Assembly: GCA_947626825.1 (NCBI GenBank)
Contig: CANQTM010000017.1
Location: 1-35,693, forward strand
Origin: an uncultured Bacilli bacterium
GTDB lineage: Bacteria > Bacillota_I > Bacilli_A > RFN20 > CAG-631
Direction: 5' to 3'
DNA length: 35,693 nt
Positions within the stretch are counted from its first letter, which is position 1. Each line of letters opens with the position of its first letter. The notes beneath the pieces are model-generated. The model worked only from the letters and a program-made list of their open reading frames with translations, was not told where the DNA came from and did not search any database. Shown in pieces: positions 13,922-15,097 of the stretch. The position numbers and the translations under genes are program-made.

Positions 13922-13950
13922 TTGACTTTATATGTCGACAATGATAATAT
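13922..13950 (+). promoter_or_regulatory. Promoter of the riboswitch / cation exchanger transcript
   Basis: TTGACT (13922-13927), 17 bases, then TGA-TAATAT (13942-13950), an extended -10. The -35 begins at the base after the uvrB stop codon. Transcription would start at about 13957, just before the riboswitch. Confidence 0.8.
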
Positions 13951-13960
13951 TGTTTTGGTT

Positions 13961-14051
13961 GAAAAGGGAGTAGAAACCATTTTTAAATGGAATGAATTCG
14001 TCAAGACAGTAATTTTATTACTCGGATTTATTTTAAAATTCAAGACTTTTA
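13961..14051 (+). promoter_or_regulatory. yybP-ykoY (Mn2+) riboswitch aptamer
   Basis: The element matches the yybP-ykoY aptamer in order. P1 is AAAAG/CTTTT (13962-13966 with 14046-14050). The conserved loop GGGAGTAG is at 13966-13973. P2 is CCATT/AATGG (13977-13981 with 13986-13990). P3 is AATTCG/CGGATT (13995-14000 with 14023-14028) carrying the conserved TCGTCA at 13998-14003, capped by hairpin AGTAAT/ATTACT (14008-14013 with 14017-14022). The closing strand CAAGAC is at 14041-14046. Members of this family bind Mn2+ and turn on metal exporters. The 3' strand of P1 is shared with the terminator that follows, so metal binding should favour read-through. Confidence 0.85.
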
Positions 14052-14080
14052 CCCATAATAGGGATAAGAGTCTTTTTTTT
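14042..14080 (+). terminator. Terminator of the riboswitch expression platform
   Basis: AAGACT (14042-14047) pairs with AGTCTT (14069-14074), with an inner CCC/GGG pairing (14052-14054 with 14061-14063), followed by T to 14080. The left arm contains the CTTTT that closes P1 of the aptamer, so the two structures exclude each other. It is also the first terminator met by transcripts coming from uvrB. Confidence 0.88.
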
Positions 14081-14098
14081 CGAAAGGATGTGGTTCTT

Positions 14099-15097
14099 AT
14101 GATTTTTTTATATATATTATTATTAATTGTAGGAATGGGATTTTTAATTAAAGGAGCAGATTTTTTTGTTGATGGTTCAAGTAAAATAGCAAAAACTTTA
14201 AAAATATCTCCATTAATTATTGGCCTAACTTTAGTATCTATTGGCACCTCATTACCAGAACTTAGTGTAAGTGTTAATTCATCAATACAGCAATTAAATG
14301 ATTTAAGTTTAGGTAATGTTGTTGGTTCAAATATATTTAATGTTTTTGTTGTAATTGGATCTAGTGCTTTATTTACCCCAATGTTAGTTTCCAAAACAAT
14401 GTTTAAATATGATATTCCAATCCTAATTTTTATTTATATAGTACTATTTCTTTTTGCTTTTGCAATTACTCCCAATGTCATTAATTTAGCAGAATCAATT
14501 ATTTTACTTTTAATGTTTATTTTATATATATGTTTTTTGATTTTAAGAAGTAAAAAATTTGCTGATGAAAAAGTTGAAGAAGTTATTGATGATAAACCAA
14601 GAAAATGGTACATAAATGTTATTTTTATTGTAATTGGTTTAGTAGGAATTATAGGCGGTGGTGAATTAGTTGTTGAAAGTGCTAGTAAAATAGCTACTTC
14701 CCTTGGAATGAGTGAATTACTTGTTGGTTTAACAGTAGTAGCTGTTGGCACCTCATTACCAGAACTTGTTACAAGTATAGTTGCGGCAAAAAAACACGAA
14801 AATGATATAGCAGTTGGCAATGCTATTGGGTCATGTATTTTTAATATTTTATTAATATTAGGATTATCATCTACTATTTCTAATGGTGGTGCAAAAGTGG
14901 AAAAATCACATATTATTGATATGTCCTTTATGTTATTGAGTGTTATTTTGGTATTTCTATTTGCTATTAAAAATAGAAAAATTGGTAGAATTGCCGGGAT
15001 TATTTTAATAATATTATATATTGTATATCTAGTTTATATTATATTAAGAAATTTTTATCCTGAAGTTTTTGTTTTCTCATTATTAAATTTATCATAA
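14099..15097 (+). CDS. CaCA-family cation exchanger (YrbG-like), probably Mn2+-responsive
   Basis: This 332-residue membrane protein belongs to the Ca2+/cation antiporter superfamily. Its two inverted alpha repeats are visible as GTSLPE at residues 49-54 and 217-222, each followed by a GNVVGSNIFN or GNAIGSCIFN segment; about ten hydrophobic helices are present. A start at 14099 is preferred over the TTG at 13922, because AAAGGATGTGG precedes it and the upstream part is the riboswitch. The family exchanges Ca2+ for Na+ or H+. The upstream Mn2+ riboswitch suggests that this one exports Mn2+, or Ca2+ in balance with Mn2+. Confidence 0.92.
   Translation: MIFLYILLLIVGMGFLIKGADFFVDGSSKIAKTLKISPLIIGLTLVSIGTSLPELSVSVNSSIQQLNDLSLGNVVGSNIFNVFVVIGSSALFTPMLVSKTMFKYDIPILIFIYIVLFLFAFAITPNVINLAESIILLLMFILYICFLILRSKKFADEKVEEVIDDKPRKWYINVIFIVIGLVGIIGGGELVVESASKIATSLGMSELLVGLTVVAVGTSLPELVTSIVAAKKHENDIAVGNAIGSCIFNILLILGLSSTISNGGAKVEKSHIIDMSFMLLSVILVFLFAIKNRKIGRIAGIILIILYIVYLVYIILRNFYPEVFVFSLLNLS

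Follow-up and report, generated by a model that had tools for sequence, protein, structure and literature searches.

A compact yybP-ykoY riboswitch without P4 precedes a CaCA-superfamily exchanger predicted to export manganese in an uncultured Bacilli bacterium

Here we report a compact leader, confirmed by comparative sequence evidence as a P4-less riboswitch of the Mn2+-sensing yybP-ykoY family, in front of a CaCA-superfamily exchanger gene of an uncultured Bacilli bacterium (assembly GCA_947626825.1). The window analysed is the whole 35,693-nucleotide stretch of contig CANQTM010000017.1. We consider it highly probable that this leader acts as a transcriptional ON switch for an exchanger that exports surplus Mn2+, and at the window locus we infer all three terms of this reading, namely Mn2+ as the ligand, Mn2+ as the substrate and export as the direction.

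Organisation of the leader and the exchanger gene

The uvrB stop codon lies directly 5′ of a probable sigma-70-type promoter (13922-13950, forward strand, as for all window features below), which comprises TTGACT at 13922-13927, a 17-nt spacer and TAATAT at 13945-13950 and, as a consensus match only, has 9 of 12 consensus letters plus a TG before the -10. With the promoter right behind the uvrB stop, the exchanger gene is probably transcribed separately, from a start that on sequence grounds would probably lie a few bases 5′ of the aptamer.

The aptamer occupies positions 13962-14050 and is best drawn as a three-way junction, a compact yybP-ykoY form assigned to Mn2+ by its family. Its switch helix P1.1 pairs AAAAG (13962-13966) with CUUUU (14046-14050), and L1 is made of GGAGUA (13967-13972) on the 5′ side and AAGA (14042-14045) on the 3′ side, followed inwards by P1.2, in which GAA (13973-13975) pairs with UUC (14039-14041). 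Hairpin P2 (13977-13990) leads into the 5′ strand of P3.1 (13991-14000), which forms ten pairs with 14023-14032 and encloses L3, UCAAGAC (14001-14007), and hairpin P3.2 (14008-14022). Within L3, A14003 corresponds in position to A41, which binds Mn in the L. lactis structure. There is no P4, as the UUAAAA at 14033-14038 is unable to form a hairpin; its absence is not defining, since a three-way-junction member of the family, that of S. pneumoniae mgtA, has been described (PMC9495176). An earlier note made from the sequence had claimed that the aptamer could be read base by base, and every letter that it named is in place (GGGAGTAG at 13966-13973, TCGTCA at 13998-14003 and CAAGAC at 14041-14046), as are the family-typical L1 letters GGGAGUAG ... 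AAGAC; the covariation and conservation described below also support that reading.

Downstream, an intrinsic terminator (14042-14080) consists of a hairpin at 14042-14074 with a predicted energy of -15.0 kcal/mol and a tract of eight U at 14073-14080. Its 5′ arm includes the 3′ strand of P1.1, so that the proposed reuse of this strand in the terminator is borne out, and removal of the strand leaves only a 3-bp hairpin of -3.8 kcal/mol. A probable ribosome binding site, AAAGGA (14083-14088, identified by eye), precedes the exchanger gene at 14099-15097, which starts at ATG 14099 (alternative GTG 14090) and encodes 332 amino acids with two alpha repeats, matching TIGR00367, “calcium/sodium antiporter”. 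A 391-aa frame opening at a TTG (13922-15097) was rejected as a longer version of the exchanger, as it reads through both leader and terminator.

In crystal structures of the yybP-ykoY aptamers of L. lactis and X. oryzae, A41 and A48, respectively, contact Mn2+ via N7 (PMC6754395); work on these aptamers has shown that Mn2+ sitting between L1 and L3 stabilises P1.1 and keeps the terminator from forming (PMC6754395, PMC9190785). The parts of these aptamers are present in the window, so the gene is expected to be turned on by Mn2+. In the absence of metal, the 3′ strand of P1 and the 3′ side of L1 (14042-14050) would form the terminator with the segment that ends at 14074, and transcription would halt before the exchanger gene. 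With enough Mn2+, L1 and L3 would come together around Mg2+ and around a Mn2+ bound via N7 of A14003, and hold P1.1 closed; the terminator would thereby be blocked and read-through would allow the exchanger to be made and cytosolic Mn2+ to be lowered.

Assignment of the leader to the yybP-ykoY family

The earlier note had looked to a significant match with the Rfam yybP-ykoY model, and on this point its expectation failed: no Rfam family matches the window at its gathering score, and RF00080 is silent even with relaxed thresholds. Yet RF00080 (Rfam 15; 177 positions, gathering score 45 bits) gives even the proven E. coli mntP riboswitch a sub-threshold 41.6 bits (L146 1962-2058), and because the model under-scores a proven switch its silence on the window weighs little. 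The RF00080 model itself seems poorly tuned. Other Rfam matches that appeared at relaxed thresholds, including snR5, PyrR and malK-II, were set aside as chance on the basis of E-value and biology.

The closest named Rfam family is RF02617/SSRC10, which matches 13961-14079 end to end at 26.6 bits (E = 0.0036, gathering score 56); being under the cut-off, the window element is no member by Rfam's rule and would be a distant relative. SSRC10, an RNA detected on Northern blots of S. pyogenes, is encoded ahead of a gene for a “putative calcium transporter” (PMC3675131). Gene context and layout lead us to infer that SSRC10 and the leader of streptococcal mgtA (formerly caxP) are one element, and SSRC10 is probably a P4-less Mn/Ca riboswitch misfiled as a small RNA. 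Like the window leader, SSRC10/mgtA lacks P4, and the SSRC10 match spans the terminator, with a downstream gene first called a calcium transporter; however, that gene is a P-type ATPase, whereas the window switch would control an exchanger. With the E. coli mntP and alx, L. lactis yoaB and X. oryzae aptamers the window element shares L1 GGGGAGUAG, the invariant A of L3 (A41/A48) and the P1 switch helix, but the solved structures of RF00080 aptamers show a four-way junction with P4, and the genes downstream encode MntP, TerC or an ATPase.

The leader region folds better than shuffled sequence (z = -2.76), and comparison of homologues was more informative. For six leaders upstream of CaCA orthologues (the window and five homologues), the structure was written by hand and the pairs were counted: 88.8% are paired, 15 of the 27 pairs are changed on both sides, none of 500 shuffles did as well, and the signal is lost when the strands are slid by one base. 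A covariance model built from these six leaders (R1) scores the window at 93 bits; as the window is itself inside R1, this score is not independent evidence, which comes instead from conservation and covariation. A search with R1 yielded 66 leaders; across these, covariation is seen at 26 of 27 pairs, with a score of 0.746 against 0.209 in shuffles for an alignment that is fitted to the model. P1.2, for example, occurs among the homologues as GAA/UUC, GCU/AGC or GUU/AAC, and the position of A14003 is an A in all 66. A second model built from these 66 leaders (R2) recovers two proven E. coli switches in the correct place and on the correct strand, that of mntP at 36.9 bits (E = 5.8e-7) and that of alx at 19.5 bits (E = 0.0064). 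By script, a terminator overlapping P1 lies behind 43 of 47 homologous leaders, a count that includes some long and doubtful folds (for example L013, L084 and L106).

Distribution and gene context of the element

We took the 80 best-matching relatives of the exchanger from named genomes; 34 of their genes carry the element upstream, always on the strand of the gene. It lies directly before the exchanger gene in 26 cases, with mntP between the two in six (L096, L097, L103, L112, L113 and L117) and a Na/Pi-cotransporter-PhoU gene between them in two (L065 and L069); the mntP arrangement was also seen at L157 and L165-L167. One locus, L113, has two copies of the riboswitch in a single operon (2069-2151 and 2879-2965), one each before mntP and the exchanger gene. 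A tree of 110 exchangers, made quickly by a short search and containing some long branches, requires approximately 26 changes in riboswitch linkage, of which at least 13 are forced by well-supported branches, and we take this number of forced changes to mean that the linkage has been gained or lost many times.

The element also precedes other genes. For 30 R1 matches in the order, the next gene, read by eye from translations, is a YoaB-type P-type ATPase in 18 cases, a CaCA exchanger in eight, mntP in three and a Na/Pi-type gene in one. The 26 R2 loci of the phylum sample comprise nine with a CaCA gene, four with mntP followed by a CaCA gene, four with mntP, six with an ATPase, one with an SPFH gene and two unassigned. 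Na/Pi-cotransporter-PhoU genes recur beside CaCA genes or right behind the riboswitch (L065, L069, L066, L067, L088, L118, L132 and L134; also L037 and L041), and a link of Mn (or Ca) to phosphate export is possible. At L155 and L158, a Mn-type leader precedes a gene whose product resembles, by eye, a CNNM/CorC-type (DUF21) membrane protein.

The only other match to the element in the genome of the window lies on the reverse strand (G000:C31:1767-1852, equivalent to L142 1767-1852) before an SPFH/flotillin-like gene (Band_7), and a sister species of the same genus has a counterpart on the forward strand (L143 3830-3912, G020:C83), again before an SPFH/flotillin-like gene. Both leaders keep L3 and the overlapping terminator, and in both GGGAG has become GGAAG (the third G) and AAGAC has become AAAAC or AAAC. 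A search of the class for this variant core, with a pattern stricter than the sister-species variant, matched one of 395 genomes, that of the window. A flotillin-like gene at L156 lies behind a leader with standard GGGAG and GAGAC. In B. pertussis, changing two conserved G residues of the aptamer, which may or may not correspond to those altered in the flotillin leaders, abolished the response to Mn (PMC8546581). Judged from its letters, the flotillin leader is possibly a variant with altered specificity. A wider proposal, which we regard as rather unlikely, is that leaders without P4 make up a large yybP-ykoY lineage of Bacillota missed by RF00080, parts of which would have shifted in metal specificity, towards dual Ca2+/Mn2+ sensing before CaCA genes and further still at the flotillin leader.

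Metal sensed, metal moved and implications

The exchanger would by annotation be called a Na+/Ca2+ antiporter, as had been anticipated: it contains two Na_Ca_ex domains (PF01699, 236 bits) and scores 253 bits with TIGR00367 against a cut-off of 179.65, which places it in the YRBG branch of the CaCA exchangers. Its closest solved homologue is NCX_Mj (PDB 3v5u), to which it is related over its whole length. The two proteins share the two alpha repeats and the ligands T50, S51, E54, S77, N81, T209, S210, E213 and S236, but D240 of NCX_Mj is replaced by N in the window exchanger, as it is in most relatives with or without the riboswitch. When riboswitch-linked exchangers were compared with unlinked ones, no residue at the ion site separated the two groups, and the best columns fell outside the transport core. 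As the ion ligands are the same in both, the moved ion cannot be read from the protein sequence. The case for Mn as substrate comes instead from context, in that the switch is common to MntP and YoaB-like exporters and exchanger-mntP operons recur, and from the precedent in B. pertussis; the exchanger is accordingly predicted to be an exporter of Mn2+, possibly of Mn2+/Ca2+. The same genome encodes an MntP without such a riboswitch, a CDF exporter, four P-type ATPases and a DtxR-type regulator; an Nramp importer was looked for in this genome and none was found. Given these other exporters, the exchanger is a candidate outlet among several, and the main route of Mn export may be another.

The literature pairs yybP-ykoY with exchangers in BP3410 of B. 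pertussis and in yrbG, which lies behind yybP-ykoY in V. vulnificus (PMC13274385). BP3410, annotated as a calcium:cation antiporter, has a yybP-ykoY riboswitch through which Mn induces it, whereas Ca does not; when BP3410 was functional, cells contained about 5-fold less Mn (PMC8546581). By description rather than by alignment, the two loci are alike in having yybP-ykoY directly before a CaCA antiporter gene, an own promoter, an ON switch acting by control of termination, and NCX_Mj as closest solved homologue. They differ in that BP3410 is proteobacterial, its BprK leader passes Rfam (E 8.5e-15) while the window leader fails, and Mn export was measured for BP3410 only. The ON direction and the Mn2+ export put forward in the earlier note thus hold as far as sequence can tell, with BP3410 as their published match (PMC8546581).

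The main rival to this reading is dual Ca/Mn sensing, as in pneumococcal mgtA, in which the P4-less aptamer would answer both Ca2+ and Mn2+ and the exchanger, true to its annotation, would export Ca2+ first and Mn2+ second. We think this unlikely, while giving it real weight: the S. pneumoniae mgtA riboswitch has been reported as a three-way junction with Ca2+ or Mn2+ (PMC9495176; also PMC11434433), among named Rfam families the nearest is the leader of a “putative calcium transporter” gene of streptococci, and the NCX_Mj Ca2+-site residues T50, E54, T209 and E213 are kept in the exchanger. However, activation of mgtA in vitro was stronger with Mn (PMC9495176), mntP sits inside the same riboswitch operons in several genomes, and the B. 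pertussis exchanger gene is not induced by Ca (PMC8546581).

Alternatively, the riboswitch might sense Mn2+ while the exchanger moves Ca2+ or Na+ to offset Mn stress, with no export of Mn2+. This would accord with the relief of Mn toxicity by Ca2+ in S. pneumoniae mntE mutants (PMC11434433) and with the presence behind the element of non-transport SPFH/flotillin genes and Na/Pi cotransporter-like genes, but we judge it improbable, as the element otherwise stands mostly before genes for exporters of the MntP and YoaB-like types, and BP3410 provides a precedent for Mn export by an exchanger of the CaCA superfamily (PMC8546581). From the lack of an RF00080 match and the filing of SSRC10 in Rfam as an sRNA, it might be argued that the leader resembles the family by chance, or that it is a small RNA acting in trans and no cis switch. 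We find this scarcely credible, and the conservation data largely refute it: across many genomes the element keeps its place and strand, its covarying pairs, the letters of the metal site and the overlap with the terminator, and the B. pertussis “sRNA” BprK is the leader of a comparable gene, cut short by termination (PMC8546581). A trans-acting sRNA in particular was rejected on account of the conserved cis position and the reuse of the P1 strand in the terminator.

The principle that an exchanger behind a Mn switch exports Mn is already proven in B. pertussis, and the gain here is one of breadth. What seems to be added is the spread of the pairing in Bacillota, the recurrent mntP-exchanger operons and a compact form missed by RF00080; we found no paper stating any of the three, in a literature search whose coverage of the key yybP-ykoY papers was incomplete. 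For users of Rfam, the practical consequence is that RF00080 misses this compact form of the Mn riboswitch. More broadly, the presence of the switch at 34 of 80 relatives, several with mntP in the operon, supports re-annotating as manganese exporters many Bacillota proteins now labelled “calcium/sodium antiporters”.
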